From NCBI RefSeq assembly GCF_029227915.1, contig NC_079877.1, positions 26,003,851 through 26,067,850 on the forward strand: a stretch of 64,000 nucleotides of DNA, in the 5' to 3' direction. Both the position numbers and the translations under genes were made by a program. Below are positions 2,799 to 52,799 of the stretch, in pieces (the stretch's first letter is position 1; the number at the start of each line of letters is the position of its first letter). This DNA comes from Hydractinia symbiolongicarpus. Taxonomy: Eukaryota > Cnidaria > Hydrozoa > Anthoathecata > Hydractiniidae. The notes beneath the pieces were generated by a model, which saw only the letters and a list, made by a program, of their open reading frames with translations, was not told where the DNA came from and made no database searches.

Positions 2799-3245
2799 CT
2801 ACTTGGAACTTGTGTATTTGGTCACAGCCTTTGTTCCCTCGCTCACTGCATGCTTTGCAAGTTCACCAGGAAGCAACAAACGAACTGAAGTTTGCACTTC
2901 ACGGGAAGCGATGGTTTGTTTCTTGTTGTGATGAGCAAGTCTCGACGCCTCGCCAGCCAATCTTTCGAAGATATCATTGACAAAGGAATTCATGATATTC
3001 ATGGCTTTACTTGAAATTCCAACATCAGGGTGGACTTGTTTCAAAACTTTGTAAATATAGATACCATAACTTTCTCTTCGGCTTCTTCGTCTCTTTGCTG
3101 CATTTTTCTTTGCACCCTTTCTCACACCTCCTTTCTTGGCTGCCATGCCTTTCCCTTTCTTTGGGCTTCCCCTTTTCGGACTAGCAGATCTGGATGTCTT
3201 CTTTGGACTCCCTTTTTCTGGACTTCCTTTTTTTGGGCTTGCCAT
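2799..3245 (-). CDS. Histone H2B with SPKK-repeat N-terminal tail
   Basis: Nucleosome core histone of 148 residues. Residues 1-33 carry tandem SPKK-type motifs (three SPKK, one SPEK, one SPKR), followed by a basic Lys/Arg/Gly stretch to about residue 57. The canonical H2B fold then runs to the end: [18 protein letters not shown] (alpha 1), [20 protein letters not shown] (alpha 2), [19 protein letters not shown] (alpha C) and the terminal KYTSSK. SPKK tails bind the AT-rich minor groove and are known from sea urchin sperm H2B and from Hydractinia H2B variants of the male germline, so a sperm role is likely but inferred. The gene is intronless, with a TATA box about 85 bp upstream and a histone stem-loop downstream. 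It is the mirror image of the gene at 5071-5532. Confidence 0.96.
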
Positions 3246-3324
3246 TCTTGAACTTTAATAAATGGCTAGCTATCTCAACCTTCCAACTGATCGCAAGTTA
3301 TAATAATGTTTTCGTGTGTTTAGA

Positions 3325-3526: not shown

Positions 3527-3778
3527 CGACTCAAATATTTCCGCTTTTATCTGTTCCATCTATTTCATGAGAAACGACTCAAATATTCCCGCCTTTTTCC
3601 TGTAGTTTATTTTTATAAGCCGACTCAAATATTCCCGCCTTTTTCTGTGACATCGATTTTGAGCACGGATCGAAATTTCCCGCACTTTTTCTGTGACATT
3701 AATTTCATGAAAAAGGCTCGAGAATTCCCGCCTTTTCCTGTATGATCTTTATTTAAAAACGGCTCGAAAATTCCCGCC
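3527..3778 (+). promoter_or_regulatory. Six tandem E2F-like sites, 45-48 bp period
   Basis: Six imperfect units begin near 3527, 3575, 3621, 3666, 3714 and 3760. Each has a CGACTCAAA / GGCTCGAAA-like half followed by an ATTCCCGCC or TTTCCCGC core. Cores lie at 3586-3593, 3632-3639, 3676-3683, 3725-3732 and 3771-3778; the first unit has only TTTCCGC. TTTCCCGC is the classical E2F binding sequence. The array ends 75 bp before the H2B start codon at 3853, with a CCAAT box at 3803-3807 between, so it reads as an S-phase promoter. Factor identity is inferred. Confidence 0.7.
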
Positions 3779-3852
3779 TTATCTTGGAAAATTTAATTTT
3801 TTCCAATGGAGTATTTTTACAATTGGAAGTTTTTGTTTACAAATTTGTTGAC

Positions 3853-4203
3853 ATGGCAAGCGATAAAACCCTAAAGAGAAAAGCTATAACGAACAAGAGG
3901 GTTCAAAAGAAGCCAAGAAAAAGAAAGGAAAGTTACAGCACTTATATTTATAAAATTTTGAAACAAGTGCATCCTGATGTTGGCATGTCAAACGAATCGA
4001 TGAAAATCATGAATTCGTTTGTATTGGATGTATTTGATCGCATAGCTGGCGAAGCACATAAGTTAGCGGCTGACAACAATAGTCAAACTGTATCTGCTAA
4101 AGAAATACAAACAGCTGTCACATTATTGCTACCTGGAGAACTCGCAAGGCATGCTGTGAGTGAAGGTTCAAAGGCAGTTAGCAAATACAAAATGTCAAAG
4201 TAA
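3853..4203 (+). CDS. Divergent histone H2B variant without SPKK tail
   Basis: H2B of 116 residues. I start it at ATG 3853 ([10 protein letters not shown]) rather than at an in-frame ATG 69 bp upstream, because the upstream codons are not histone-like. The N-terminal tail is short and basic. The fold is conserved ([55 protein letters not shown]) and ends KYKMSK. Compared with its neighbours, the L2 DNA-contact loop is unusual: [10 protein letters not shown] replaces [10 protein letters not shown], and the Arg before the LLLPG helix is Thr. It is intronless, has a histone stem-loop 24 bp after the stop, and sits behind the E2F-like array. It lies between the two inverted SPKK-H2B copies. It could be a specialised replication-coupled variant; its expression cannot be judged from sequence. 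Confidence 0.93.
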
Positions 4204-4992: not shown

Positions 4993-5070
4993 TCAGAATA
5001 CACAAAAAGATTTTCATAATTTGCGATCAGTTGAAAGATTGAATACCTATCTAATTATTAAAGTTCAAGA

Positions 5071-5532
5071 ATGGTAAGTCCAAGAAAAGCCAGTCCAAGA
5101 AAAGGGAGTCCAAAGAAAGGAAGTCCAAAGAAGACATCCAGAGCTGCTAGTCCGAAAAGGGGAAGCCCAAAGAAAAGGAAAGGCATGGCAGCCAAGAAAG
5201 GAGGTGTGAGAAAGGGTGCGAAAAAGAATACAGCAAAGAGACGAAGAAGCCGAAGAGAAAGTTATGGTATCTATATTTACAAAGTTTTGAAACAGGTCCA
5301 CCCTGATATTGGAATTTCAAGTAAAGCTATGAATATCATGAATTCCTTTGTCAATGATATCTTCGAAAGATTGGCTGGCGAGGCGTCGAGACTTGCTCAT
5401 CACAACAAGAAACAAACCATCGCTTCCCGTGAAGTGCAAACTTCAGTACGTTTGTTGCTTCCTGGTGAACTTGCAAAGCATGCAGTGAGCGAGGGAACAA
5501 AGGCTGTGACCAAATACACAAGTTCCAAGTAG
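5071..5532 (+). CDS. Histone H2B with SPKK-repeat N-terminal tail
   Basis: H2B of 153 residues, nearly identical in its core to the gene at 2799-3245 but with a longer tail: two SPRK, three SPKK and one SPKR motif in residues 1-36, versus five motifs in the sister gene. The histone fold is canonical from [18 protein letters not shown] to KYTSSK. The SPKK region is where the copies differ in repeat number, as expected if slippage expands or contracts it. The gene is intronless, TATA-driven, and ends in a histone stem-loop. Together with the minus-strand copy it forms head-to-head arms (about 2761-3425 and 4891-5570). A germline or sperm-chromatin role is inferred from the tail. Confidence 0.96.
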
Positions 5533-5570: not shown

Positions 5571-6302
5571 ACACATTTTCTAAAAATATTATGAGGCGTT
5601 AAAGCAGTGGAAAACTATTTTTACTATCGTGACCTTCCAGGGTATTTTTTGCCTTTTCGATAGTTCTCTCAAACAGGAATACTTCGCTCCCCTTGTTTAA
5701 TTGTTTGACACAAATAGAAAAAATTATCGTCTGAGTGGTTCACTCAACTAATGGACAGCTGATATTGTCAACGTGTGTTAAGAAACTTATTGTCAAAATG
5801 AACCCGTTCTTAAAATAAACATATTTTCTGATTCACCATTGTGCTCAACCTCGTCCCCAGGTCTATTTTACGTCGGTGATCTGTCACGTCAGAATAAAAT
5901 AAGCGTAGAAAAACACTGGAGGGGAGGTTGGCTTGTGCCTCGTTTATTATCTGAAATAAGATAAGTCCACTTATATGAGCCCTTTTTACTATCTTTTTTG
6001 CTTATTCTGAACTCTTTACTCAAATTTGTTATCTTAAATCGAAAAAATATTTCCGTGAATTCTTTTATCCCCGCCCAAAATACTGGGGTCAATCACACCC
6101 ATATGCATTTCACCGTCGGTTTCCGCACCTATTATTTCAGCCAATATAGATTGTACTTTTTGATGCTTTTACCAAGCGCCAAATAAACGCCCTTTGCGAA
6201 AGGTTTATTAAAAGGGAAGATTACAATAGCGCTTTAAAACACTCTAGGTGTTTACTTAGGAAAAAGTATTAAAAATAAGAGAAAAAAAACGCCCTATTCT
6301 TA
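5571..6302. other. Noncoding stretch with remnants of the CCTCGTTCCCAGGG repeat
   Basis: CCAGGGTATTTTTTGCC at about 5638 and CCTCGTCCCCAGGT at 5849-5862 are diverged ends of the short MITE family. No gene is seen. Confidence 0.4.
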
Positions 6303-7251
6303 AGGTGGGGGCAAACCAGTTCAACTTTTCATACATTTTATCATGTTGAATGAAATTTGGATAAAAAATGCATGTTGGATGAAACAAAATTTTAGGTTTA
6401 TGGGACTGCTTTTGAAAACATTCGAACGATAGAGTTCATTCATTCCTGAAGAAAAAAATGGCGGACGGAAGGAATTCTGCAGAGCTGCTTATGTTGCTAA
6501 TTCGATTCAGACGATGAAAAACTAACTCCCAGAAAAAAAGTGTGAATAAAGAGGGAGGGAACAAAGTGGATATTTTAGTAATATCATTAAAGAATTAAAG
6601 ATCGAAGACAGATTCGGATTTAGGGAAATATTCGAATGGATGTGGGGGATCTCGATTTCCTCCTTAATGAAGTATCCCATCTGATATCACCTGGCGAGAT
6701 GAGCAACTGTGTTGGCCACAGATCAATCATGGCAGAAGAAAGACTCGCCCTTACTCTTCGTTTTCTTGCGACAGGAGAATCGTTTCAATCACTTCACTTT
6801 CAGTTCAGAATTTCTTTGAATGCAGTATCCTATATAATAAAAGGCTGTTCCAAGGCTTTGGTTGATAAATTGGTCCCAAAATTTCTTCAACTACCATCCT
6901 CTGGCTTGAAATTTCCGAGAAGTTTGAGACTAGGTAGAACTATCCTCATGCTTTAGTTGCAACAGATTGATTATATGTTGGATGAAAAGTACCACCAAAC
7001 CAATCCAACGTGAAAATTCACGTAACTCAGATAGAGAATTCCTTTGATCTCGCCGAAAATGTTGGATGAAATGTTTGATGACGGCGATTAAACTTTGTCC
7101 AACATCGTCCAACACGATTTCTTTCTTCTTTTCTAAAAATTTCAATTTTTTCAAAATTTTGAAGTGACTCAAACCAGTCCAACATTTCATCCAACACTTC
7201 AAAAATTGCACGTTGGATGAAATGAAATGTTGGAATGGTTTGCCTCCACCT
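6303..7251. mobile_element. 949 bp internally deleted PIF/Harbinger transposon
   Basis: The left end AGGTGGGGGCAAACC (from 6303) and the inverse of the right end, AGGTGGAGGCAAACC (to 7251), are terminal repeats matching at 20 of 23 positions. The element is flanked by TTA at 6300-6302 and 7252-7254, the 3 bp TWA duplication typical of PIF/Harbinger. GTTGGATGAAA recurs in both orientations just inside the ends (about 6372, 6973, 7062, 7185, 7212), a subterminal-repeat pattern typical of transposase binding. Only a transposase fragment remains inside. Confidence 0.88.
6636..6956 (+). pseudogene. Harbinger transposase N-terminal fragment
   Basis: A 106-codon frame. Residues about 34-71 include ERLALTLRFLATGESFQSL, the helix-turn-helix-like N-terminal signature of HARBI1-type transposases, closely matching the one at 62575-62700. 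The homology stops near residue 92 and the DDE nuclease is absent, so it is the residue of an internal deletion. It lies inside the 949 bp element. Confidence 0.75.
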
Positions 7252-7320
7252 TTATAAGCGGATTAACCACGTTGCATGGCATTGAATTGACAATTTTAGA
7301 TAAGCCAAAAATTAATCCCA

Positions 7321-7367
7321 CACGGCTGTTTCAGCTAGCGAGATTTCGGAAACTCAGACTGCGCATG
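7321..7367 (+). repeat. Left terminal inverted repeat of the putative RAG1-like element
   Basis: 47 bp made of CACGGCTGTTTCAG, a 12 bp spacer, CGGAAACT and a final block ending AGACTGCGCATG. The same blocks occur inverted at 13191-13227. It is preceded directly by CCCA (7317-7320). RSS heptamers and Transib termini also begin with CAC. Confidence 0.6.
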
Positions 7368-7800
7368 TCAAAAAAAAATTTAAAATAAGGACTGGGGCGA
7401 GTTGCGCTTAAAAGTAAACAAATTTTAGGGTAGCTAGCACCAGGTTTAATAGGCATTTTAATCACATAAACCAACTTAAGGACTGGAAACTAAGTGGTTT
7501 AAATAAAATATAGTCCTATACCAATAAGATTAATTCAAATACAAAGCTATTCGCTTGTTGCCTAGCTAAAACAAAACAAAAACTTTCAACCTCCATTTTG
7601 AAGACTGTGGACACCATGCCAACTTAAAGCAAAATATTTTCAGATACGAAGTTATCCCACAGATAATTTTTATAAAAATCATTCCAAGATAGTTACGAGA
7701 TACGAATAAAAAAAGAACTGTAGGTGTATCAGTACATTACGAATTGATATTGTATCAAACATTAGGTACTTTTTTTTCAAAATTTTTGTTAAAGTTCAAG
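7368..7800 (+). other. 5' flank of the RAG1-like gene
   Basis: Noncoding, 433 bp between the left inverted repeat and the ATG. GACTGCGCATG at the inner edge resembles half of an NRF1-type site. No clear TATA box is seen close to the ATG. Confidence 0.4.
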
Positions 7801-10800
7801 ATGGCTACTGGGGATTTACACCTAGCTCGGTTGAACAAGCTGTGTCGAATATGTGGAAACACTCTGCCTGGACGATCACATATTGTCCAAGAGCACATAA
7901 AGAACTTGGACAGTATTTTCAGAGCTGATTTTTATTCTGATCGGGCAGGCATTCACCCAAAAAAATTCTGTCACTCGTGCTTTGCTACAATAAGTAATGT
8001 CCTAAAACGTGACTCAGCTACCGCTATTGTGCCTGTTAAATGGTATACACATAAAGACACCGAGTGCAAAACATGCATATTAAGTGCACAAAAAAAGAGA
8101 GGTGGCAAACCTATGAAAAGAAGGGGCGGTGGTAACCCAACACACAAAGCTGTGGATTCCGCAGAAAAAACTTGGACACCCCTAGAACTTAATAAAATTT
8201 ACAGAAAAACCTCTGAACTTTTTGACTATAGTGGAAACGTTCTCTCAGACATAAATATCAGTGAAGGCAACTGGGAACATCTGATTTGTGCTTTGTGTAG
8301 CAATATTTTAAAAAGGCCATTAATGATAAACCAATGTAACCACGTGTTTTGTGCCTTGTGTTTAACAAATTGGTTGGAAAATTCAAATAGATGTCCCACC
8401 TGCAGCATCCCAACAACACCCGGGGATGTCTCGCCTGGTTTGTGCATTTCCAGGATTTTAAACACACGAGTTGTCAAGGGAACATGTGGTTGTTCATTTA
8501 AACTGCTGTCTGCACAATCGCACACATGCTCTCCAGCATTGTCATTTACAACACTAGAGATGATGCAGTTGAGCCCTTCCAAGCCTGTACCGAAAAAGGT
8601 AGAAGAATGCATTGCTCATGTGGTTGGAATAAAAATGCAGCAGTCAAACTTGCCGAATAAAACTGTCCAATTGCCCAGTGGAAGTTCACAAGTAAGATTA
8701 CTTATGTATGGAGTGGACTCAGTAAAAGTGATTTGACATTGACTTTTTTTAACAAGCAACTGATTTTCAAACGGCTGATAAAGCAAAAAATTTTGATCTT
8801 AGCAATTTTAAGGCTGAAATCAAAACTGAAAATAAGTTGCTTTTGTATATGTCTATATATGTGCATACCTAGGTTATCATTTTTTTACAATTCCAGTGAA
8901 ATGTTTCTTATACACATTTTTTATACAAAAAACAAGCCATAATAAGAACAAGACAAATTTTAAAATGTTCAGAGTAAATAATTAAAAATAATAATAAATA
9001 TAAGTAAGTGGCTAGAGGGGTCACAGAATATAGGAAGTTTTGGGGGTCAATAAAAACCATTCTATATATTAGGAGATTTACTAAAATTTTGATGTGCCCA
9101 CCCTAAATGCTAAGGCGTCTACATCGTTAAGTGATCTTATATAAAAAATGTGTATAACTACTTTATACAAAAATACAAAACTATGCTATGTTATATTAAA
9201 AATAATGTACACATAATTGTCTGTAACAATATGATAATTTTAATAGTAATATTACATTTTACATAAAACAAATTAATAACATATGTTCCATATTTTAGCC
9301 ATTGACAATAACACCCATTAGAATTCCTCGCAAGTCTTCTGATGAAACATGTGAAAGGAATGTGCGGAAAAGAGCAAATACAGCCAAGGAGTTAATCCAT
9401 CTGATGTCTGGTGAAGAAACCCAATCTGTCACAAAACAGACCACAGCACTGCTAAAGTCTATGGAAGAAAGTGACAGAAATACTATCATTAAAAATTTGG
9501 GTACAGAAGTCATTATTCCAGCCAATCACATCACAGCAATGAAATCAAATTTAAACATGCCATGGAATCAACTACGTGAAATATCACGTTGGTTGAAAAC
9601 ATTCAACATAAAAATTGAATCAGAAAAAAAAGCAAGAAGTGTCGCTGCTGAATGGGTAGGCCAAGGACTGAGAGTTGAGCTGGCTCCTCTCACCAAATTA
9701 TCAGTTGGAAACAGGGTATCCGTTATACCTAGGCCCTGGGGGTATCTGTATAATGTAGTTGGCCACATTCTGTATCAACTCAAAAAGCTAGAATGTCACA
9801 ATTTACTTGTAAAACATAGTTTCATTCCTGACAATGAGATCCATGTTAAAATTGGTGGAGACCATGGAGGAAATAGTTTTAAAATGGCATATCAAATAGG
9901 CAATGTTCTAAACCCAAACAAGAAGGAAAACACAATAATGTTTAGCATTTTTGAAGGTAACAAACATTAATGCAATATATTACAAATATGAAAAAAAAAA
10001 AATTAAAACTGGAATTTCCAAAATTCTATGCATGTGATGTCTAATTGTGATCTAAAGTAGAAATGATCTAAGTGATCTAAAGTAGAAATCAAAACATTTT
10101 TTATATTTTTTTTTTAAATTAGGGAAAGACACAAGAACAAACTTAAGAGTCTGCCTTGAACGGTTTCGACCACAAATAAAAATGCTGCAACAAGTCAAAT
10201 ATAAAGAGTCGATATTCCGTGTATTTATGTATGGCGACTACGAATTTCTGTGTGCAATGTATGGTATAACTGGTGCAAATGGTAAATATTAATTACTTAA
10301 GATCTGGGGCAAGTTGCTAGTTGATAATCAAAATTAATTAATTTTTGACCACAAATAAAAATGCTGCAACAAGTCAAATATAAAGAGTCGATATTCCGTG
10401 TATTTATGTATGGCGACTACGAATTTCTGTGTGCAATGTATGGTATAACTGGTGCAAATGGTAAATATTAATTACTTAAGATCTGGGGCAAGTTGCTAGT
10501 TGATAATCAAAATTAATTAATTTTTACAGAACTTTTTTTGCAACTTCATAAAGTTCCTGTAGTTTAACAATGGGTTTTTACTACGCAGATATGGGAAATG
10601 CATAGTTAAAAATGGTTTATTTTTAAAAGTTTCTAATAAAATATGTATACTTTAACATTTGTGTTTAGGGCGTCACAGCTGTTTGTTTTGCAACATTACC
10701 TCAAAACTAATGAACATCCCAGTGTTTACTCGCAAGAAATTTAAGAAAAGGTCACTGGCGACACTTGAAGAAAATTTAGCAGATTTCCGTGAAAGTGGTG

Positions 10801-12478
10801 GGAGCCCTAAAAATGCGAAAGAATTTTATAATGTCATTGACAACATATTTTTTGACATACCTATTGATCAAGTATACATCATATTTTTATGCTTTTCCAC
10901 TGCAAGTTGATTTAATAATCCCAAAATAAAATCTATATAAACACCTAATTTTAGGTCTGTATTCCTGGTCTTCATATTTCCTTGGGTGTATATCAAAAGA
11001 TGTTTAAAATGTTTGAGTCTTCTTGCCAAGACTATGATGTAAAAATAGCTCTGCTGTTGGCAACAGAAGACAATGAACTGGATTCAGATTATGGTGACTA
11101 CATCGAAGTCCTTAAAGAAACAAATGACTTGCAGCAAAAGCTGGAAGATGAAAAAGCCAAATTAGCAAACCAGCAAGATCAGTTAAACTGGCTTGTAATA
11201 TCTGGTGGCTTACAACGAAATATACTGACGTACGAGAAAAGTATAATAAAAACTGAGAAGAAAATCACAGAATTAGAATTAGAAATCTCAACCTTGGGAA
11301 ACAACAAAAGAATTTTAGTGGGTATGATCATTTTTATTACCTAAGTAATTTTTTGTGATATTCGCAAATGTTTTTTTGTCTGGAAATTCCAAGAAATTTA
11401 ATTCCCGAAAAAAAACTTTCCAAAATTATAATTTTCATTCTGATCTTATGATGCAAGCCTTATATTCTCTCCAATCTAAAGCTATGTTTAATAGTTTGTT
11501 CATCTTATTTTAGGTGTTGGTCCTTGTGCTTCTTCAATAGATAAAACGCTGCAAAAAATGGGTGTTGAACGTCAGGCCTACCATGGCCAAAGTTTTATCG
11601 GCAACCATGTACATAAATTGCTAAAGGTTTGTTAATACTAACAATAATGTAGCAATTTAAAAATAACATATTTAAAGAAAATTAAAAAAACAATCTTGCT
11701 CTTATAGAAAGAAAACATCCAAAATTTAACATCCAGCATTAAAGAGATTGTTGCAGCACAAAAGCATGATGACCAGCTTATTCACAGTGTGAATTTAGAA
11801 ATGGATAAGTACGACATGTTATTTACTTACTTTGCAGAAGTTCATAACATTTACAATTCGGCAAAATATCTGTCATGTGAGGAAATACTGGCTTTAGGTG
11901 AGAAACTTGTTCCTTTTTTTAATAATAAATAAGTTTTTTTTAAAATTTCATGTGCCAAAAACAAAACAAAAAGAAAGAATAATATACATATAGTACATAA
12001 TTCTAGAAATTTCAATTAATAAATTCATGATGCATCTGCGAACTAACTGGCCAAAAGTTAATATTTCACCAAAACTGCATATGCTTGAAGATCATGTCAC
12101 TGAGTTCATAGCAAAATGGAATGTTGGATTTGGGTTTTATGGCGAACAAGGTAAACAGCCACTTAAATTTGTAACCTGGTAACACCAAAATTTGTGTTTT
12201 TTACCAAAATGTGTTATTTTTCAGAAAATGTGTAGCTAGCTAGCTTAAATGTCAAATTATAACATTTTTAAGGTGGAGAAAGCTTGCATCATGAAATCAA
12301 CAGGATGTCGAGCAGGTACAGCTGCATCAAAAACCCAGTCGAGCGGTTACGAAATACATTAAAGCAACATTTTGTTAATGTAAATCCTGAATCGAGCCAA
12401 TTAAAACCAAAAATTAAAAAAAGAAAAATTGCACATATCTTTAACTGCATATTAGCATTACTTTGCAAGCTCCTTTAG
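7801..12478 (+). CDS. RAG1-like recombinase, nine exons, 976 residues
   Basis: Exons, all with GT/AG borders and joining in frame: 7801-8691, 9299-9956, 10123-10281, 10669-10871, 10955-11321, 11514-11626, 11708-11897, 12007-12150, 12273-12478. The start ATG 7801 has the context CAAGATGG. Residues 15-92 match the RAG1 zinc N-terminal region in order: CRICGN, SIFR, a second pair HPKKFCHSC, then CKTC. Residues 163-201 are a C3HC4 RING (C163, C166, C179, H181, C184, C187, C198, C201), followed by a Cys/His cluster to 243. A basic patch near 304-325 may equal the nonamer-binding region. The catalytic core has D485 (KIGGDHGG), D555 (YGDYEFL) and E911 (GGESLHHE). The zinc ligands C574/C577 and H885/H890 sit 19 residues after the second D and 21 before the E, against 19 and 20 in mouse RAG1 (D708-C727, H942-E962). 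Residues 687-756 form a predicted coiled coil in the region between the zinc ligands. All key residues are intact. RAG1-like genes have been reported in cnidarians; V(D)J recombination has not. An active or domesticated recombinase is likely; DNA substrates are unknown. Confidence 0.9.
10168..10525 (+). repeat. Perfect 179 bp tandem duplication across RAG1-like exon 3
   Basis: 10168-10346 is repeated without a difference that I could find at 10347-10525. The unit covers the last 114 bp of exon 3, including the codon for catalytic D555, its splice donor and 65 bp of intron. The second copy has a donor but no upstream acceptor, so it should be spliced out as intron. It is very recent, polymorphic, or an assembly artefact. 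Confidence 0.95.
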
Positions 12479-13190
12479 TCTTTGCATTATTGGTGGATCA
12501 GCTGGTCTAGAAAGAAAAAGAATTGAACAGTTAATTAGCTTACTACATGCATAGTTCATTTTTATTTGACTTTTTGTCGAGCTTACGTTAGTAGTGTATG
12601 AGACGCAGAAACCTTATTTAGAGTTACAGAATTGTTTATATAGAATGTTGTTTAGTGTTGTTATTCTGTGAAATATTAGCTTAGTAAACTACAACAGTTT
12701 TAATGCCTACAATAAATCATACAGTAGATTATGTCAAAGAGGGAGTTAAAATTTTCAGGTTTTACACTAACTTTTATTGCCAGAATTCAGCGCTCTAGCA
12801 TTCTTTCAGAAGTACTGATACAGTTTTTTCGTTTTTATTACCTTGTAGATGAGCCTTTCAGCTTTCCAAAAATATATAATACACCAGCCACATAACTTCG
12901 CAACGTCCACAAAACCAAAAATTAGTTGGAACAAGTTGCCATGTTAATTTTAACAAAAAAAAGTATGCCTTCAAAACTGCCACAGTATTACTCCAACAGC
13001 ATGCTTGTCACAAAGGTAAAAGAAAGATTTAGCTTCCAGCGTGTTGAAATGCTTTAAAAAACTAAATTAAATCCACTGAAATAGATTCTATCATGCAAAA
13101 GCGATTTCAAAAAGTTAGTTACTTATTTATCATGATTGTTTTTATTTGCGCCCGCCATCTTGCGCCTCAACGTGGCCGTAATTATTGACG
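12479..13190 (+). other. 3' flank of the RAG1-like gene
   Basis: Noncoding. A polyadenylation signal AATAAA lies at 12711-12716, 233 bp after the stop. No second gene is present between the stop and the right inverted repeat. Confidence 0.55.
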
Positions 13191-13227
13191 CATGCGCAGT
13201 CTTAGTTTCCGCTCTGAAACAGCCGTG
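13191..13227 (-). repeat. Right terminal inverted repeat of the putative RAG1-like element
   Basis: Read on the minus strand: CACGGCTGTTTCAG, a 2 bp spacer (AG), CGGAAACT, then a block ending AGACTGCGCATG; 37 bp in all. The blocks match the left repeat with one mismatch, but the spacer is exactly 10 bp shorter. Followed on the plus strand by CCCA (13228-13231). Confidence 0.6.
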
Positions 13228-13231
13228 CCCA

Positions 13232-15180: not shown

Positions 15181-17138
15181 TCATAGTTCTATCTCGTCCA
15201 TTTGTGAATAATAAATAATAACATTATACCAGTCCAATACTTCCAGTTCATTTTCACCGCGAAGCTTCCATACCCTTCCTTCCTCTTGTATGATCAACAT
15301 ACACGCATCTTCGCTGTTCACACTCACAGGCAATCCGCGCAAATAAATCGCACCGGACAACTTCCCGTCCTCTTTTTTAGAATAATGCAAGTAACCAGCC
15401 GGCGTCACTTCGAAGTGTCGTCGATCCCACTTTGGGTTACGCTTCTTGCCTCCGCTGAGTTTTTCCAAGTAGCCGCTCTTCACTGGAAACGACAATTCAT
15501 CGTCGCTTTCGAACCCTGACTTTTGTCGTTCTATTACAGTCGCTTTCTTCAGCGAATATACTCTCGTAAGTGTGTCGTCTTTTAGTTTGGTTGTGTGCGT
15601 TACAACTTCTTCATACGCGTCCTTTACAGGTGAAACCATGGGTAAAGATTGCCTTTTCTTGTCTACACTTGCCTGGGTCGTTGGGTCAGAAGAAACTGGG
15701 TGATTTTCGCTCAGCTCTTTAACGACTACATTTTCTTTCGAATTCTGCTCGGCGTGTGTTTTTAACTCGTGTTCTTTTCTGTTCGACATCCTTCTCTGTT
15801 TCTGTTCCACGCTCTCTACGGCCCTTTGAAGTTGCTTCATAAAATTCGACACGTTCATCATCCAAACTTGAAAGTCCGCAGTTGGACTTTCTCCAAATTT
15901 CTTTTTCAGCAACAGCGACATCTCTTTGGTGGTATGACAACACACCTCCAGTACACCAATCCGCATTAAATAGTTTTCTGCAAATTGCACAACGTTCTCC
16001 AGGAAGTCCCGACTCAGCATGCTTGACATCTCTTTGCTGACTTTAATCAGCTTCTCCACATCCTTTTTCATGATTTCAACTTCAGCGATCAATCCCTTCA
16101 AAGAGGCGTCAATCGGCGTCAGCAATCCAGGCATAACCTTGTAACACATCAAACATGCTTTGTCTGTCTCGTATAACTCTTCAGTTAGATACTGCAATAA
16201 TGTATGTTTCTTATCCGCACTTCTCACTTCAACTAACTTCACAAGAGCGCTTAGTTTAAACCCGTACGCCCGACCACGATTGGTTCCACCGTTCATATAG
16301 TTACCTAACGATAACACGTATTCTAATAGTCTTACAAAATCTTTGTTATCGATTAGTGTTTTGCAGGCTTCCATCAGTTTTTTTATCGGTTCCTCGATGC
16401 CCGCTAATTCATCAGGTAGCTCGCGAACCGTTAGTAAAATATCCAATCTCTTGCCGAGTTGTGAAATGTGACATAATTTATGCATAAACTGGTCAACACT
16501 GGGCATGTCGTTTATATTTCCTTGAAATGACTTATACATCTCAATCTCCTCCGTTGTGGGTTGAAAACGTTTCAATGACGTGATTTGCTCAGATGACAAC
16601 CCAGCGTCTTCATGGAGAACACTTAATTTGTCTTCAATATCGGAACTAGATAGCTTAAACCCGCTTAAAAATATGCCAAAGTTTTGTGCTTTTCTGGGAT
16701 CCAACAATGTCTTTTGTACTGGTTTAATGTTCTTTTCAGGTTTTGAAACAATTTTTTCAGCGTTTGAACTCTCTGTTCCAGTATTGAATAATTTTTCCAG
16801 CTTGCTTGTGTCCAAATGCATCATCCTATCTTGAGCCTCCTTCCATATCGATGATGTTATTAAATTATCGGGAATCTTAGTCCAAAACAGAGGCTTCATT
16901 TTTAAATTGGGTATCACATCTTCCTTCGCTGGTAGGTGCAACGACATGGCACCCGTTCCTGGCAGTGGTGGAGGTGGAGGTACGGCACCTAGGGGTGGGG
17001 CGGGCGGTATATCATCGGTTTTGATTTCAACCACAGGAACATTTGTTAAAGTATGAACAGGGCTACTTGGACTGCTCCGCACGGTCGTTTTATCATTGGT
17101 AGGTTTTTGTTCGAATGTATGGGATTGATAGACCTTGT
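15181..17138 (-). pseudogene. Truncated duplicate of the PH-domain formin
   Basis: Encodes residues identical to the last 633 of the full formin: FH1 proline runs, the whole FH2 domain and the C-terminal PH domain, ending at the same stop. At the duplication border (17138/17139) the frame runs into 3' flank sequence and meets a stop 13 codons further upstream. The first codon that could be read as a start, at 17082, is GTG, and the first in-frame ATG falls inside FH1. There is no promoter or first exon. I therefore call it a non-functional partial gene, although a 3'-extended transcript of the full gene could run through it. Confidence 0.85.
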
Positions 17139-18315
17139 TAATGTTCTTTTCACTTGTCCAACATTTTTGCTATTTTGATCTTCAGGTTCTTCTAATCACT
17201 TTGTGTACATTGACTCGTGACCATCACAAGAAAGAAAAAAATATCCCACTGTTTTTTAATTTAGCCACCCGTTTGGCAAATGTGTAAAAACACTCAATTA
17301 TAAATAATTCAGCACTCACTAAGACGTAAACAAATTTGATTTATAGTTGGACTGTTTTATGGAGCAGACGACCAAGTAAGTCAGTCTGGTCTTTAAAATC
17401 AACACTTATCATTAAATTTCATTCAACAGCCGTGCCGCAACGCAGTTCGCCTCTTCTTTAAACCCGTATAGGCGAAAACCCGTAAAGGGACAAATTCTGT
17501 TGATCGTAAAGAACGGAAATTATATAAATATCAATATTTGTCAGCTGTATGTGTTAAAACGTTACAAAAATTAACAGCGTAAAAAATATCTATATATAAA
17601 AAATTTTAGACAATCAAAAAATCTTAAAAAATAAAAAAAGTAAGGCTGCTTATTTAGCCACGTTATTAAATATGTTGTCCACTCAGATTGACAGTAATAT
17701 AATAGATTAAGGCAGAAATATGAAATATCGCAAATCTGGCATTTCACTGGCTGGAATATTTCACATATAACTTCGATGCTTTAGCACGTGACTCAGACAT
17801 CCCCGCAAAACAAATGACGTTGCGTCACAAGCATGTTAATCAGATTCCAATGTTTCTCAGGTATGCAAATAAAGACAAGTGACAAAATCTTGTTCGTTCA
17901 TACACCCGCCCTTTTCATAAGCAACTCAAAAAATTCGGCTCAAGGTTAAGGTTTTATTTTTTACATGCTAACTGTTGCATACTTAATACTTATCGACTAT
18001 CTATTTGAAAAGAAAAATTCAATTTTGTTCTTGCTCCGTAAGTTACTGCACCAATAAAAACAAACGTGGAAATGATACTTAATGACGTTTTCTGTATGAA
18101 ACTTTAAAAACATTTCTGGAAAACAACTGTTTTCCTTGTAATCCCTGTTTTTAACTTTTTTTCCCACTTCAGGCTGGGTTGTTACTTACAAGTTTCTTCG
18201 TCTTTTAAAACTCATGTTGCTTATAAAAAGAAGTGTGCATGCATAATTAGACTAATGTATAAAATGAAAAGATAAATTAAAATAAGATTTCAAGGTTATC
18301 GATCATAGTTTTAGA
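17139..18315. other. 3' flank of the full formin gene (copy of 14004-15180)
   Basis: Noncoding. Identical in the parts compared to the flank of the truncated copy. Contains CAGCCGTG at 17427-17434, a 10 bp match to the RAG1-like terminal repeat that I consider fortuitous. Confidence 0.5.
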
Positions 18316-21300
18316 TCATAGTTCTATCTCGTCCATTTGTGAATAATAAATAATAACATTATACCAGTCCAATACTTCCAGTTCATTTTCACCGCGAAGC
18401 TTCCATACCCTTCCTTCCTCTTGTATGATCAACATACACGCATCTTCGCTGTTCACACTCACAGGCAATCCGCGCAAATAAATCGCACCGGACAACTTCC
18501 CGTCCTCTTTTTTAGAATAATGCAAGTAACCAGCCGGCGTCACTTCGAAGTGTCGTCGATCCCACTTTGGGTTACGCTTCTTGCCTCCGCTGAGTTTTTC
18601 CAAGTAGCCGCTCTTCACTGGAAACGACAATTCATCGTCGCTTTCGAACCCTGACTTTTGTCGTTCTATTACAGTCGCTTTCTTCAGCGAATATACTCTC
18701 GTAAGTGTGTCGTCTTTTAGTTTGGTTGTGTGCGTTACAACTTCTTCATACGCGTCCTTTACAGGTGAAACCATGGGTAAAGATTGCCTTTTCTTGTCTA
18801 CACTTGCCTGGGTCGTTGGGTCAGAAGAAACTGGGTGATTTTCGCTCAGCTCTTTAACGACTACATTTTCTTTCGAATTCTGCTCGGCGTGTGTTTTTAA
18901 CTCGTGTTCTTTTCTGTTCGACATCCTTCTCTGTTTCTGTTCCACGCTCTCTACGGCCCTTTGAAGTTGCTTCATAAAATTCGACACGTTCATCATCCAA
19001 ACTTGAAAGTCCGCAGTTGGACTTTCTCCAAATTTCTTTTTCAGCAACAGCGACATCTCTTTGGTGGTATGACAACACACCTCCAGTACACCAATCCGCA
19101 TTAAATAGTTTTCTGCAAATTGCACAACGTTCTCCAGGAAGTCCCGACTCAGCATGCTTGACATCTCTTTGCTGACTTTAATCAGCTTCTCCACATCCTT
19201 TTTCATGATTTCAACTTCAGCGATCAATCCCTTCAAAGAGGCGTCAATCGGCGTCAGCAATCCAGGCATAACCTTGTAACACATCAAACATGCTTTGTCT
19301 GTCTCGTATAACTCTTCAGTTAGATACTGCAATAATGTATGTTTCTTATCCGCACTTCTCACTTCAACTAACTTCACAAGAGCGCTTAGTTTAAACCCGT
19401 ACGCCCGACCACGATTGGTTCCACCGTTCATATAGTTACCTAACGATAACACGTATTCTAATAGTCTTACAAAATCTTTGTTATCGATTAGTGTTTTGCA
19501 GGCTTCCATCAGTTTTTTTATCGGTTCCTCGATGCCCGCTAATTCATCAGGTAGCTCGCGAACCGTTAGTAAAATATCCAATCTCTTGCCGAGTTGTGAA
19601 ATGTGACATAATTTATGCATAAACTGGTCAACACTGGGCATGTCGTTTATATTTCCTTGAAATGACTTATACATCTCAATCTCCTCCGTTGTGGGTTGAA
19701 AACGTTTCAATGACGTGATTTGCTCAGATGACAACCCAGCGTCTTCATGGAGAACACTTAATTTGTCTTCAATATCGGAACTAGATAGCTTAAACCCGCT
19801 TAAAAATATGCCAAAGTTTTGTGCTTTTCTGGGATCCAACAATGTCTTTTGTACTGGTTTAATGTTCTTTTCAGGTTTTGAAACAATTTTTTCAGCGTTT
19901 GAACTCTCTGTTCCAGTATTGAATAATTTTTCCAGCTTGCTTGTGTCCAAATGCATCATCCTATCTTGAGCCTCCTTCCATATCGATGATGTTATTAAAT
20001 TATCGGGAATCTTAGTCCAAAACAGAGGCTTCATTTTTAAATTGGGTATCACATCTTCCTTCGCTGGTAGGTGCAACGACATGGCACCCGTTCCTGGCAG
20101 TGGTGGAGGTGGAGGTACGGCACCTAGGGGTGGGGCGGGCGGTATATCATCGGTTTTGATTTCAACCACAGGAACATTTGTTAAAGTATGAACAGGGCTA
20201 CTTGGACTGCTCCGCACGGTCGTTTTATCATTGGTAGGTTTTTGTTCGAATGTATGGGATTGATAGACCTTGTTTCTACTCGGTGGTTTGCCGGCGTAAA
20301 GATCTAACTCTTCGTCTGTTAACTTAGGAGGTAACGGTGGAGCTTCTCTACTTTCTTCGTGGTAAAAATTTTGTAGATTATAGTAGGACCTGTCTTCTGT
20401 GTTCTTGCGAGGTTTGGAGACCGTAGCGTACTCTACCGACGTTTCGTAAAAATTCGTGGTTTGCGGAGGAGAGTATTGTGGATAAGATACAACTCCATTT
20501 TCTGCCGGTTCGCTCTCATTGTTCTCTTGGACGTAGGACAAATTTAGCATGTTGTAACCTTTATCCGGAGCACCTACATGATGTTTTGACTGCTTAGATG
20601 AAACCTCTTCCAAGTGCGAGTAATTATTCGAATCAAACGCATTACCCATTTCGTTACCAAACCGTTTATTGTAATAAGTATGGTCTGGAAAAGAAGTTGG
20701 TAATACAGGAGCTTGATCTGGTGTCTGATTGTGCTCTGCATGGCGGATTGTCCACGATAGCAACCCGGTTTGGATTTGGTCGTTTAAAGAGTGTACTATC
20801 TCCCTCACCTTCTTCACCTGTGTTGACGCGCGTATAGGTGCGTCGATGATGTTTAGAATAACACCTAGCTGTTCCAGCTCCTGGTTGAGTGAACGAACAA
20901 CGTTTTTCAAGTAAGATTCTTGATCAAATGGTGACATGCTGGACGAAGCGTTGTCAAATTCACCCTTGTACGCTATTGGTTTCGCAGCTTCTTGAATGGC
21001 TAAGATCCAATCATCTCTTTCTTTCTCGACCGACTCGCTATGTCGATTTCCAGGTATGCGAAAAGTGTATTCTTTTTTGCCAATAATTAACAAAAATCCA
21101 TTATCTTCAAGTTTTCTTATAAAAGTCCCACCAGTTAAGGAAATAATACTCAACGCAGCACCATCATTCGATTCGTCGCCCAACTTAAAGTACAATATTT
21201 CTCCGTTCGTAACACGAACATGGCGTTTCGCCCACATCAGAAACGCAGCTGTGCGACCTTTCTTTTCGAGTAGGCCTTCTTTGAGCACAGTCTTGCGTCG

Positions 21301-36395: not shown

Positions 36396-38002
36396 CTATT
36401 TGAAATAATCTTTGATTGAGGATTGTTTTCTATTTTGAAGCTGAAGTTCCTCAATCTTTTTCCTAATGGTTGACAACATTTCTTGGCATGTATCATCAAA
36501 AATAGTAGATCGCTTAATTGTATCAAGCATAGTGATTAGCTCGGTGAAACCAAGCATTTCTTCTTCAACCACGTCTTCACTCTCATCATCATCCTCGGAA
36601 ATCTCTTCGACCTGACATGCCATCTCTGGATTTTCAATTGCGTTAATGCTAGCTTCTCGGATTTGATGTCGCCAATTTATTTCTAATTCGTTAATTCTTG
36701 GCTCCGAAGCTGGAACATCGGCGTCAAAATCGATGTATTCTGCAGCAGACATATCTTCAGTTAATTCCTTCACCAGAGCTTCAAATTCCAAGTCATCTTC
36801 TTGATCTTCCATCAATTCACTTTCTCCTTGAACTACGCCACATTTCTCGAAACAATTTTTGATGGTCAAGTTGGTTACTTCTTTCCACGCATCTTGAACC
36901 CATTGAATAGCCATAAGTATGTCTACGCTCTTGATAATTTCAGTTGCAGATTTATTCTTCTGGATCCTTGCAAGCACGTATTTGACCAGTCTTTTTCTGT
37001 ACTTCACCTTGAAGTTTTGGATGATCCCCGCATCGAGTGGTTGAAGCCTTGAAGTTGTGTTCTTCGGTAAGAAAATGATTTTGATTTGTGAAAACTGGCC
37101 TATCATTGACTCCGGATGACAGGTGGCGTTGTCCAGAAAAAGAATAACTTTTCTGTCCTCAAATAAAAGTTTTCTGTTAAAACGTGCCAGTACAGTTTCC
37201 ATTACTTGAGATGTCATCCAAGATTTAGGATTTGAAAAGTAGTGAACGTTAGCTGGACGCGATGGATCTTTCAATTTTTTAAAACAACGCGGGACTTTAC
37301 TCTTCCAGATAACAACAGGCTGGTCGATCTTTTCCCCAGCTGCATTTACAAAAAAGCGACAGTTAATCTAAGCTTTGACTTTTTCCCACCTTTTGCTTGT
37401 TTTCCTTTTTCCACTAACCCTTTGGCCGGTAGAGCTTTAAAAAAACAGCCACACTCGTCCATGTTCCAAATATTTTCTAGTGAATAACCTTCAACCAATT
37501 CTTTGATCCTCTCCATCCAGGAAGTAACCGTTTCTGTAGAAACGTCACCAGCTTCACCAACAATACGACGTTCTTTGACGGAATATGTTGTTTTCCAACG
37601 ATCCAACCAACCGTCAGAGGCGGAGAAATTATCAAAATCGCTGTTCTGAAGTTTTTCCTTAATTTCCAACGCCTCCTCTTTAAGCATTACACCATTAGGG
37701 TAGATGTTAGAAGCGCAACATCTTTTGTACCATTCGAATAAGATCTCATTTATCTTGTGATACTTGCCATGGCGGTTACGTTTTTTTGTTTTCTCACGAA
37801 AAATTTCATGTTGTTCACGAATTTTCTTTTCGTCTCTTAAAATATTTGCTGCGGCTGTCTTTCCAATCTTGTAAATGTCTGCTAGTTTTCTACATCCAAG
37901 TTCTGGATTTTTTTTGGCGAAATCCAAAAACTTGATCTTATCATCTAATGATAAAGTTTTCTTCGCTAGTTTACCAGCAAGCTGCTGCTTCGACATTGCC
38001 AT
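36396..38002 (-). pseudogene. Tigger/pogo transposase, one frameshift
   Basis: Reads from ATG 38000-38002 (MAMSKQQLAGKLAKKTLSL) through a CENP-B-like DNA-binding region with two helix-turn-helix segments (KIKFLDFAKKNPELGCRKLA; then KEEALEIKEKL, GWLDRWK). The DDD nuclease follows: first Asp in NMDECGCFF, second in FLDNATCHPE, third in LQPLDAGII, with 32 residues between the last two. Residues 1-218 and the following 292 are in different frames. The break lies at a run of six T near 37345-37350, where one added base would restore LTVAF to FVNAAGE. The tail is acidic. Apart from this slip the gene is nearly intact, so it is a young defect or a sequencing error in a homopolymer. Confidence 0.9.
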
Positions 38003-38007
38003 GTTGA

Positions 38008-38586
38008 ATGTGCATTAGAAATTCAAAATTCGAAATTCTTTCCAGTTTAAAATTTTACGCTGCAATGTTTTCACGATTCGAATGCTATTTTAAAGTTAAA
38101 GAAGCTGAAAAGAACACAGATATGTCGAACGTTCAACTAAATGAGATGCTTCTCAAAAACATTGACCAACAGATTGAGATTATCCTTATAAAACAGAAAG
38201 AATATCGCTTCGACTCGTTTATCCGTGGATACCATGCTTACATGGACATATGGAGCCCAAAAGTCGGAGAAGAGAATTTTTGTTTAAAAGCGGAAGAAGA
38301 TAACGAACATGACAAGTTTGCTGTAGCTGTTACAGATGACGATAAAGTAGTTGGGCACGTCCCTAAAAACCTTAGCAAACTATTCAACAAATTCATGTCG
38401 CTTCCTAACTGTACCATCGGATGTAAAGTGACTGGGAAGCGAGTGAACCGTGGTGCTGGCTACGGACTAGAAATTCCTGCCCAGTACCAATTAATTGGTG
38501 TTGAAAAGGCAGTTGAGTGGGCCGAGAAAAATATAAGGAAAGTGTTGGACTCGGTAAATAACAAAACTCAAAGATGTACTAAGTAA
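38008..38586 (+). CDS. HIRAN-domain protein carried by the Tigger element
   Basis: Up to 192 residues. Candidate ATGs lie at 38008, 38065 and 38122; the domain begins later, so all leave it whole. Residues about 70-170 form a HIRAN domain: FIRGYHAYMDIWSPKVGE, then DKFAVAV, VVGHVPKNLSKLF, and GCKVTGKR. HIRAN is the module that in HLTF/Rad5 helicases binds 3' single-stranded DNA ends; here it is stand-alone, with no helicase. The first ATG is 5 bp from the transposase ATG, so the two genes share a divergent promoter inside the terminal repeats. A role in transposition or in handling the excision gap is inference. It is undamaged while the transposase is frameshifted. Confidence 0.8.
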   Translation: MCIRNSKFEILSSLKFYAAMFSRFECYFKVKEAEKNTDMSNVQLNEMLLKNIDQQIEIILIKQKEYRFDSFIRGYHAYMDIWSPKVGEENFCLKAEEDNEHDKFAVAVTDDDKVVGHVPKNLSKLFNKFMSLPNCTIGCKVTGKRVNRGAGYGLEIPAQYQLIGVEKAVEWAEKNIRKVLDSVNNKTQRCTK

Positions 38587-42050: not shown

Positions 42051-43973
42051 CAGTCTATAAAAGTCTCGAAAAATAAAAAGCTAGCCTCAGGTCGGATTTT
42101 ACCAGTTTTTTGGAAAACAACGTGTCTCCCTCCCTTGTTCCTTGCTTTCTTTTTACCACAGACAAAACAAAATTATGCAATTACAGTCAGGGGTTTGGAA
42201 ACAAAGTGGTGATTTTTCTTTCACATCATTAATCTAACAAGATCGATAACTTTTAATGTGATTTCTTAAGATAAAATCTTTAAAATGTGTCACTCAGCCT
42301 CTCCTGAACGCGTTCACAGATCTCATTGTGTGGAAAAAATATCGATATGAAGACATCGCGGAGGAAGCTCTTTAGTCGTCTCAGTAAAGAAAAGTTTAAT
42401 CTTATGAAGAGAGTTTGACAACAAGGCATATTCGTTTATTCTGTTTGTATAACATTTCTGTATTGTGTGTTATTAAAAACTTGTGATATACTGTCCTCTT
42501 TTGTTGTATTGATAATATTTGTAATCTATAGACAGGCAGATAGATGGTAATTTGACACAGATATTCAACGAATCAATAACAACGCTATATACACTGACTC
42601 ACGTAACCATCTAGTAATTTGAGTCTATACAAGATTTTACAAATACGTTTCTTATATGAGACCAAGCAAACGATCACCTAGTAAAAGTTTTCTAAATTCT
42701 TAGGTTATTTTATTATAAAAAGTTTCTCAACAAGTTTCTTAATTTTGTCAGTATACAAGAAGGGTATTCAATCAACAAATATATACAAAGAAAATAGAAA
42801 TAAGGTCTATTTTGCTATACATCATTTAAAATATGTTTCGGTAAAATCGGGAATTCCGTTTATTAGGATAACCCACTTTATCTTTGTCCAATTTTTTGTT
42901 ATCCCTAAATGCTAATACCTGAATGCTAATCGAATGGCATTGGTTGACTGCCACCAGTCAGTTTCTTATAAAGTGGTTTCTTATACAGAAAAACGTGCAT
43001 ATGATGTCCAATGTTTTCTAAGAAACAGGAAGTTCAGCTTCAGTCTGAGGTTTCTCAATTTTTATAATTTTTATAACTTTAGGTTCAAATACTATTCGCA
43101 AAATGTTAAAATTAATTTTGCGAAAATTTTTGTTAAAAGATAATTTTTCATGCTTGTTGTGCAAAAGCCTCGATGTTCTTATATGCTTTGTACTTCTTTA
43201 AAAATATAGCGTGTGTCGGATAATAAATAAGGTCTTAATTTGGGTGCGAAGTGAAGAAAAAGGCTACATGGCCTCGCGCAGTATCTTAGCTTGGTGAAAA
43301 AACAATTTTCGTTCTAAAAATAAGACCACAATTATTGGATCAAATAAATTTCATTTACAAAACCAGTTTTTTACAAACAAGGTTTTGTTTTTCCGAAAAA
43401 CTTTCATGTTTTAGGAATAAGACCATGTTAATCTTTCTCTGTCATGCACGCTGATTTCTACAACAAAATGAAGACCTCGATGAAGAAGTTTGACAACTAA
43501 ACATCGGAAAGAAAAATATTTATTTATAATCCTAGGGAAAATAAAATAGTCTCCAAGGCTTAGAACAATATCTGAGATTATTTTCGGTCACATAAGTACT
43601 TTCAACTCTCCATCGCACGTAAGTTAGCGCTAAAATGATCCTATAGATGTAAGAAAGTCAGCCGCGGTGGTGGTCGTTAATATGGTATTTTGAGTCTTGT
43701 GTGTCGGAACTTAAAAAGAAAAGTTTTAATTTCTTTAATATTGATTTATTTAAAAATAAAACAATTTATTCTGAAGTTTTCCTTCGTAAGGAACGCAGGA
43801 TCAGTTCTTTCCGTTTTTCTGGAAAGAAGCTAATGCCAGCAGTTGGAAGCAGTTAATATTCAAAAAGAACAAAAGTTATCAAATTTTGCCGCTTAAATTC
43901 ATGGTAGACTTCCGTTTTTTTTTATTTACTTATTGCGGAAGTTATCCACGCTAGAAAATAAATAGCCGACAGG

Positions 43974-45197
43974 ATGAACAGCACCGTGCCGACACTGTCA
44001 ACCATTCTGCCGAATGTTACCAACACAACGACGACAGCTATGCCAAAAGAAAACAAATTTGACTGGCGCGATATTATAATTATTATCGCCTTATGTATAA
44101 TTCTTGTGATAGGAGTACTTGGGAATTGTCTGGTTTGCCTTTTGTTTCGAACGAGCAGAAAAACAAAACTAGGCACGATGGAAAGCCTTATATTTTTGTT
44201 AGCCATAGTGGATTTAATCGCGAGTATTATCAACCCCTCGCTGTATATTTACTGGCAAGTGACGTTTAACAAAAAATGGCATTTCGGTGTCGTGGCATGT
44301 AAGATTTTACCGACTATAGCAAAGGCGACAGTTTCTGTCTCGCTTGGTATTATTTTGATCATCACAGTAGATCGTTGTGTAATTATAGTTCGACCGTTTC
44401 ATCCGCAACCCCGAAAATCAGTCATTTATGTCGGCGTTCTTCTTATAGTGGTGATATCACTTATCAAGGAGTTGCCAAATATTGTTTACTTGGAAGATGT
44501 ACCAGGAGTAACCTGCGTAGTCCCCGACGCGAGCAACCCGAAGTTTGTTTATCCGTTGGTAATAATGAACATATTGCGGGATCTTGTGTTCTTAACAGTG
44601 TTTGTAATCACCTCGTTTTTGATCTACAATGAATTGTATAACAAGGAGCATTTAGCTGCGTTAAAAGCTCAAAAAGATATCAAAAAAACGAAAGAAGTTG
44701 TAGTTATGCTCATCACAATGGCCGTCGTATTTATCATTCTCGTTTTCCCTCGTGACATACTACATACAGCATACGCCATTTCGTGGCTCTCTCCTCCGGG
44801 GATCCCATACACAAAATTCGTACGCGATATTAACGCCATTTTGAAAATTTTACATATGTGCAACAGTGTGTGTAATGTATTCATTTATGCGGGATTGCAC
44901 GGTCGATTTCGAAGAGAATTGATAAATTTCGTCAAAAAGCTTTTCTGCCGTGTTGCTGAACGACGTAAAATGACGCTATATTCTGAAACGTCGGCATCAT
45001 ATGACGATCAGTACAGTGCATACTCAAACAAAAACATCAATTACGTATGCCCTCCAACACAGTGGGAGGAAAACCATAACTACAGACGCACAGTCACCAA
45101 TGTAACAACAATGTCGGACATAACCGACCTATCACTTTTGTATCCGATTGATATGGATGAAGAGAAATTCCACCAACTTTTTGAGACAGACATGTAA
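43974..45197 (+). CDS. Class A (rhodopsin-like) GPCR, orphan, copy A
   Basis: Intronless, 407 residues, seven membrane segments. The N-terminus has three N-glycosylation sequons (N2, N14, N17). Landmarks: N51 in TM1 (GNCLV), D80 in TM2 (LAIVD), C109 and C181 for the TM3-ECL2 disulfide, D133-R134-C135 instead of DRY, P259 in TM6, and N301 VFIY in TM7 where the usual Pro is Val. A basic helix 8 (HGRFRREL) and a 90-residue Ser/Tyr/Asp-rich tail follow. About half of the residues in the membrane core match the gene at 49361. The layout resembles peptide or amine receptors, but the ligand is unknown. Confidence 0.92.
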   Translation: MNSTVPTLSTILPNVTNTTTTAMPKENKFDWRDIIIIIALCIILVIGVLGNCLVCLLFRTSRKTKLGTMESLIFLLAIVDLIASIINPSLYIYWQVTFNKKWHFGVVACKILPTIAKATVSVSLGIILIITVDRCVIIVRPFHPQPRKSVIYVGVLLIVVISLIKELPNIVYLEDVPGVTCVVPDASNPKFVYPLVIMNILRDLVFLTVFVITSFLIYNELYNKEHLAALKAQKDIKKTKEVVVMLITMAVVFIILVFPRDILHTAYAISWLSPPGIPYTKFVRDINAILKILHMCNSVCNVFIYAGLHGRFRRELINFVKKLFCRVAERRKMTLYSETSASYDDQYSAYSNKNINYVCPPTQWEENHNYRRTVTNVTTMSDITDLSLLYPIDMDEEKFHQLFETDM

Positions 45198-48125: not shown

Positions 48126-49360
48126 CGTGCCTTAATAAATTAAAATTAAGAATATACCCATTTTTCGGATAAGCGATTTCCGAGTCTTACCAATTGTGTA
48201 CTGCATGTAATTTAATTGTGGCTTGCAGTTCTGGGAACCGCGGATCAAATCTCTCCACTTCCAGGCTGCATGTGTTAACAGAGTATCTATTTTATGTGCC
48301 AAAAATATATCTATTACTAACAGAAATTTAAAATAGAAATGCAAAATTTCTCTCGTTCTTACACAAAAAATAATTATGGTAATGTACTCCGTTTGTATTA
48401 TACCACAATTGTGCCATGTTTTATGTTGTCAGATGGCACTTTACACCCTCCATACTTTTAAGGCCTCAAAAGCTTATACCAAATAGAGTTATAGAGGGTT
48501 AATAAGCCTGTGGTGGTGAGAGGATTTTCTGTTTTTATTTCATCTGTTCTCCGTCAAAAAAAAAATCGTTATGTGCTAGAGAATCTTTCTATCTTATATT
48601 TGATTTTGTTGTTGTTTACACAGCCGTTTTTCTTTTACACAAATGTGTTTTTGTTTTCTAACATGAACGTTGGTATGTAAATCGCGACAAAATATAAATA
48701 TATGAAATAAAAATGACAATTAAGTAAACTATAGCATTGACTAATATAGAATATCTTGATTATCTTAAAATTGATTTTTAATTTCTTTATCATAATTTTA
48801 CTGATGCTCGGGTGGAACCACGGAAGATATGGGCTTGTTCTAGAGCACTACATAAGTGAATGGGTGGAGGCGGGTTTAGAAGGAATAAACAGGGCGTTGG
48901 AAAATGTCTTAGAAAGTGGGAGAGTAAGAGAAGGTACGAGGGGGCGTTGATTGGAAAATAAAAAGCATGGATTTTTCGAATTACATAACATGTTAATGCA
49001 ATGCATTATTGTTTCACCCTTGTTCCCAGGGCTAATTGCCTATGATAATGAAAAAATATATTTCCCAGTCTTTTTTCACATCAAAAAAGCAAAAAACGCT
49101 ACAAACGGGGGTGAATCTTTAGCCTGTCCTGAATTCCATCCACACGGATTTTGCAGACTAAGTGAATATAAGAAATTAAAGGTATCCATAAATGCATTTT
49201 TTAACTGTCCACAGTGCTACCAAAGGAGATTCTTTAGCCTAATCAAGTGAGAGAAATTATGGAGAAACGGGGGTCCTTTTTATATAAATATCCTGAATAT
49301 CATTTTCCATCTAAATTTCTTCACTAGGTATATGTTTCACGAAAGCAAACTAAATCCAAA
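48126..49360. other. Noncoding stretch upstream of GPCR copy B
   Basis: No supported gene. TGTTCCCAGGG at about 49021 is a remnant of the CCTCGTTCCCAGGG repeat. Confidence 0.4.
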
Positions 49361-52673: not shown

Positions 52674-52799
52674 TTTCTGATGTTGAAAACTATGCCAAGG
52701 ATGTTTATTTGTGTCAGTAGAACAAAATTTCCCTATACTACGAAATACAACCTGTAAAAGTTGACTTGACTGAATTGTAGTCAGTAGAGATTTCTACAT

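Follow-up and report, generated by a model that had tools for sequence, protein, structure and literature searches.

The window, a stretch of 64,000 nucleotides from contig NC_079877.1 of Hydractinia symbiolongicarpus, contains a gene whose nine exons are joined through GT-AG introns into a frame of 976 residues with zero internal stops (7801-12478). The gene lies inside a longer unit bounded by inverted repeats, and the coordinates of both are collected in Table 1. Four of the 16 nearby splice-site combinations gave open models, the other three being shorter by 2, 3 and 5 residues, and the 976-residue model retains the stretches GITGANGRH and GEQGGES, which are present in homologues. Seven of the eight exon junctions, read by eye against homologues that are themselves predicted proteins, fall within ungapped alignment to at least one homologue; the junction at residues 759/760 borders a coiled stretch that varies among homologues. 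The tandem duplication at exon 3 (10164-10342 and 10343-10521, 99%) has its second copy inside the intron that follows this exon. Neither this duplication nor the surrounding 5,907-bp unit had been recorded in the initial annotation, which described a complete, intact gene. Its nine exons and its frame were confirmed, whereas the description reaches no further than the open frame; judged from the sequence, the transposase gene is intact only in the sense of an open gene model.

Table 1. Features of the element and of its transposase gene (positions in the window)
Feature	Position	Strand	Evidence
Left target-site duplication CCCA	7317-7320	.	identical to 13228-13231
Whole Chapaev-type transposon, 5,907 bp	7321-13227	+	inverted ends and 4-bp duplication
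Left terminal inverted repeat CACGGCTGTTTCAG	7321-7334	+	exact inverted match to 13214-13227, 14 bp
Exon 1: RAG1-like (Chapa-type) zinc N-terminus and RING	7801-8691	+	PF12560, zf-C3HC4_2, RAG1 match
Exon 2: most of DUF1280 region and first catalytic D (D485)	9299-9956	+	PF06918
Exon 3: second catalytic D (D555)	10123-10281	+	gene model, alignment; mostly within 179-bp tandem duplication
Exon 4: zinc ligands C574, C577	10669-10871	+	gene model, alignment
Exon 5: conserved LH motif (643-644), coiled insertion	10955-11321	+	gene model, motif scan
Exon 6	11514-11626	+	gene model
Exon 7	11708-11897	+	gene model
Exon 8: H885, H890	12007-12150	+	gene model, alignment
Exon 9: catalytic E911; stop at 12476-12478	12273-12478	+	gene model, alignment
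Right terminal inverted repeat	13214-13227	-	inverted copy of CACGGCTGTTTCAG
Right target-site duplication CCCA	13228-13231	.	identical to 7317-7320

Elsewhere in the window, two segments of 1,959 bp, 100% identical and in direct order (15181-17139 and 18316-20274), hold the 3' part of a minus-strand reading frame that we take to be formin-like; either they arose by recent duplication or they are an artefact of the assembly. At 6297-7257, imperfect inverted repeats (36 nt, 83%) flank an ORF (6624-6956) that gave no Pfam DDE match and by eye resembles part of the ORF at 62488. The latter, presumably a Harbinger-type transposase, extends over 62488-63552, its frame broken by one in-frame stop, and matches DDE_Tnp_4 at 1.9e-13 in its first part. 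Two overlapping minus-strand ORFs at 36396-38014, assumed here to be a pogo/Tigger-like transposase, match DDE_1 at 1.8e-37 in 36399-37367, and a broken run of ORFs at 51951-57150, one of them weakly PIF1 helicase-like (5.6e-05, below cut-off), is possibly a degraded Helitron. The ORFs at 2799-3254, 3757-4203 and 5062-5532, two with N-terminal SPKK-like repeats, are presumably histone H2B-like, and those at 43962-45197, 49328-50560 and 60081-60992 are taken to be single-exon GPCR-like ORFs.

Ends of the element and its mobility

Allowing 2 mismatches, the terminal sequence CACGGCTGTTTCAG was found at only two places in the window, namely both ends of the element, and an inner inverted block (7347-7367 and 13191-13211) agrees at 95% over 21 nt. 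At the target site 4 bp agree, while the 5-mers differ. When 2,000 flank pairs were resampled with settings picked after the ends had already been seen (13-bp threshold, 2-kb flanks), 434 contained some 13-bp exact inverted pair and six combined such a pair with a matching 4-bp duplication, none of these six beginning with CAC. The RSS heptamer is CACAGTG, and four of the seven end bases agree with it, CAC among them. From the stop codon to the end of the element there are 749 bp, in which no ORF of at least 110 aa was found.

According to the available portion of PMC4079192, the hallmarks of Chapaev elements are target-site duplications of 3-4 bp, CAC..GTG ends and the motifs C(2)C, LH and H(4)H. 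The element at 7321-13227 displays all of them, and the window protein carries the full motif set with D485/D555/E911, C574/C577 as C(2)C, LH at 643-644 and H885/H890 as H(4)H. Through these signatures, the DUF1280 domain and published descriptions runs the assignment of the element to the Chapaev transposons, and it is very likely that the locus holds an autonomous-looking cut-and-paste DNA transposon of this type (CMC group) with a nine-exon transposase gene. The transposase would bind the CACGGCTGTTTCAG ends and cut with D485, D555 and E911 coordinating the metal ions, and the cut may proceed via a hairpin on the flanking DNA, as in RAG1 and Transib. Joining of the element to its target with a 4-bp stagger, followed by repair, would then leave the 4-bp duplication.

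A host gene domesticated from a Chapaev element, with mobility lost, would be in keeping with the single open nine-exon model and with the remaining 58 kb of the window, where a search for further copies gave no blastn matches and a best tblastn E of 5.6. However, domesticated transposon copies usually lose their inverted ends and target duplication, and both are still present here, which renders domestication very improbable. A pattern scan of viral contigs yielded 139 matches, none of which was confirmed.

N-terminal zinc domains and RING

The N-terminus of the window protein matches RAG1 156-357 at 4.2e-11, and at 1.3e-19 by profile. Pfam assigns the RAG1-like N-terminus PF12560 to aa 38-103 (26.2 bits, cut-off 23.3) and a RING (zf-C3HC4_2) to aa 163-201 (44 bits, cut-off 27). 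The matches to RAG1, together with a domain order that is the same as in RAG1, argue for a genuine RAGL (RAG1-like) gene or transposon, and the locus had indeed been annotated as a RAG1-like recombinase in a cnidarian, with an N-terminus taken as specific to RAG1. This specificity is not borne out, since PF12560 also occurs in other Chapaev-type proteins: it was found in four of the five members of alignment A1, and P0001, P0002, P0004 and P0005 carry it above the cut-off. Compared with these four, only the window protein has a RING above the cut-off; P0002 and P0004 match RING models below their cut-offs, and P0001 and P0005 gave no match.

As described in the accessible part of PMC4411706, the Chapa domain owes its name to Chapaev transposons that were found in lancelet and in starlet sea anemone, and in two Chapaev subgroups, whose hosts are not named there, a RING comes after it. 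Going by that description, the PF12560 region would correspond to the Chapa domain. The same part of PMC4411706 mentions reported ubiquitin ligase activity of the RAG1 RING, and by analogy the RING of the window protein may likewise be a ubiquitin ligase.

Family and predicted fold of the catalytic core

The core, which the initial annotation had ascribed to RAG1, is placed in the Chapaev/DUF1280 family by both Pfam and profile HMMs. Residues 373-540 match DUF1280 (PF06918) at 4.4e-15 (56.3 bits, cut-off 25), and this domain was found in all five members of alignment A1. The RAG1 core (PF12940) gave no Pfam match at E up to 1 in the window protein or in any of the five sequences of this alignment, whereas the mouse RAG1 core (387 residues) and the RAG1L protein P0041 of the acorn worm Ptychodera flava, used as controls, reached 777 and 423 bits, respectively. 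Homologue searches returned 11 proteins (4 + 7), including ones from Antedon mediterranea, Strongylocentrotus purpuratus, Branchiostoma belcheri and Hydractinia symbiolongicarpus, and PF06918 is present in all 11; it occurs in none of 36 proteins from a RAG1-core search that admits only about 213-677 residues. With an HMM built from the 11 Chapaev-type proteins, the window protein left out, the window core reached 780 bits, whereas six of seven RAG/RAG1L proteins stayed at or below 8.7 bits (the seventh not reported). Conversely, the HMM of the seven RAG/RAG1L proteins gave 5.3 bits for the window core and up to 12.7 bits for Chapaev-type rows, versus at least 609 for its own seven. In the full-length RAG1 alignment the C-terminal piece of the window protein scored -2.7 bits, and among the 60 PDB matches listed, RAG1 chains were reached through its N-terminal part only. 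In the sections available, PMC3985635 identifies DUF1280 with the Chapaev transposases and groups it with RAG1 in a single clade, and according to the Hydra genome paper (PMC7642931) six out of seven cnidarian genomes contain DUF1280.

With the mouse RAG1 core as query, amphioxus RAG1L was retrieved from the PDB at 1.5e-60, and HzTransib was not recovered at E up to 0.001. Since the RAG1 core itself misses HzTransib, the silence of the sequence searches excludes closeness to RAG1/RAGL only, not deeper kinship. A weak sequence kinship to RAG shows in hhalign (68.8%, E 4.5e-05), in BLASTP to RAG1L P0041 (0.005 in a small database) and in the scores of up to 12.7 bits that Chapaev-type rows reach with the RAG HMM.

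The catalytic residues and zinc ligands previously listed are all in place. In alignment A1, D485, D555, C574 and C577 are conserved in four of four homologues, and H885, H890 and E911 in all three that reach them, P0004 ending earlier; we infer that E911, not E907, is the catalytic Glu. The spacings had been taken to point to RAG1, but the distance from D to CxxC is 19 in six of seven RAG-type rows (P0043 not scored) and, by script, in 10 of 12 Chapaev-type rows, the exceptions being P0001, where an N-terminal Cys pair was caught (19 by alignment A1), and P0011, which stops before the motif. As 19 is common to both groups, this spacing does not discriminate and was dropped as a pointer to RAG1. 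Every Chapaev-type row long enough to show it, seven with the window included, has an H-E spacing of 21, against 20 in five RAG-type rows, so that the 21 cited in the annotation is the Chapaev value. The D-D spacing is 70 in the window protein and 70-75 across the 11 Chapaev-type rows having both motifs (window included), as opposed to 108-109 in four RAG-type rows (P0012, P0013, P0015, P0041; P0043 and P0044 gave no value, and the 38 of P0039, taken for a defective gene model, was dropped). From C to H, 308 residues were counted in the window protein, 263-319 over six Chapaev-type rows including it (P0001 mis-scored) and 203-207 in seven RAG-type rows.

Two homologues, modelled in place of the window protein, have predicted cores of a RAG1/Transib-like fold with RAG1 as the best fit, and the fold of the window transposase is probably similar to RAG1. 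The best structural alignments mostly start near RAG1 459-480, after the nonamer-binding domain; a few have their start at about 391-411, and their rmsd is higher. The 50 structural matches listed include no solved structure of Chapaev, Mirage or CACTA, an absence that carries no weight as evidence. Placement of the core in another DDE superfamily had been named beforehand as the result that would refute the RAG1-like reading, and by sequence this is the outcome, the core falling to DUF1280; by predicted fold the Chapaev-type and RAG groups look like kin. What stands of the earlier interpretation is a RAG1-like N-terminus, a RING and a core in RAG1 order, the RAG1/Transib fold being predicted for relatives of this core, but the core is not that of RAG1/RAG1L.

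The fit of the homologue models to RAG1 is a further point for a RAGL gene, to be set against the core family, the D-D spacing, a duplication of 4 instead of 5 bp and the 749 bp behind the stop codon, which leave little room for RAG2L and are short for six Kelch repeats. The C-terminal motif Cx2Cx3GHx4C of invertebrate RAG1L is absent from the window protein as well, with a thin control in that one of the seven RAG-type proteins has it (the RAG1L P0041), while the available sequence of the other six, including the RAG1L P0043 and the unnamed P0044, lacks it. Taken together, a true RAGL gene or transposon is extremely improbable.

As a Chapaev transposase, the window protein is a distant cousin of vertebrate RAG1 whose domains follow a similar order; it is not the product of a RAG1 gene. 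Because the Chapa-type N-terminus, the RING and the RAG1/Transib-like core share their order in the element and in RAG1, the whole RAG1 architecture, not the core alone, could stem from one transposase predating the cnidarian-bilaterian split, a proposal that we put forward tentatively and rate at somewhat below even. The vertebrate RAG1 N-terminus may accordingly have been inherited rather than added by later fusion. The crinoid homologue P0002 shows the order N-terminus, RING and core with a RING only below cut-off, which slightly lowered our estimate. That Chapa and RING had joined the core in an ancestor shared with RAG1 was already proposed in the part of PMC4411706 at hand, and the two predicted folds add support for the core portion of that proposal.

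Relatives and comparison with known systems

In a tree of the window protein and its 11 homologues, the window protein groups with the Hydractinia protein, which fills 41% of the tree columns, and four others in a clade of six rows (97/96). The Hydractinia homologue has 57% identity over 294 residues, and the placement fits a cnidarian host. The uncharacterized crinoid protein P0002 of Antedon mediterranea aligns over 98% of the query with 32% identity; it resembles the window protein in having both PF12560 and DUF1280 above cut-off and differs in its RING (17.6 bits, cut-off 27).

The RAG1 likeness of the Chapaev transposase is real, ancient and already noticed, and Chapaev transposons had been known before from animals, sea anemone and lancelet among them. 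Kapitonov and Koonin are said to be the authors of work on Chapaevs with Chapa and RING domains. Our search, with Repbase and most subscription papers outside it, returned no published report of this very element. The locus provides a complete-looking example of a transposon group that has both its N-terminal domains and its predicted core fold in common with the V(D)J recombinase. Having defined ends and an open gene, it could be used for testing RAG1-like cutting by a Chapaev transposase and for asking if the RAG1 N-terminus is ancestral.

The published Chapaevs, compared with the window element by description and not by sequence, have a Chapa domain, a RING in two subgroups and a core only distantly related to Transib/RAG1 (PMC4411706, available part). 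With the DUF1280/PF06918 family (PMC3985635, as far as available), the core match exceeds the curated cut-off and no difference was found in the tests made. According to a citing paper, RAG1-N-terminus-like sequence is also found in the N-RAG-TP element of Aplysia. RAG1L-RAG2L pairs had already been published from three cnidarians. RAG1/RAGL, as covered by the accessible text of PMC7204232, share with the window element the N-terminal zinc domains, the RING, the predicted core fold and the D-CxxC spacing of 19, but differ in core sequence family and in D-D and H-E spacings. In the same text, duplications of 5 bp and a RAG2L gene in convergent orientation are given for RAGL elements, and these, with the C-terminal motif, set them apart from the window element. 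Finally, canonical Transib (HzTransib) is described without an identifiable domain beyond the core (PMC4411706, available part), whereas the window transposase has N-terminal domains.
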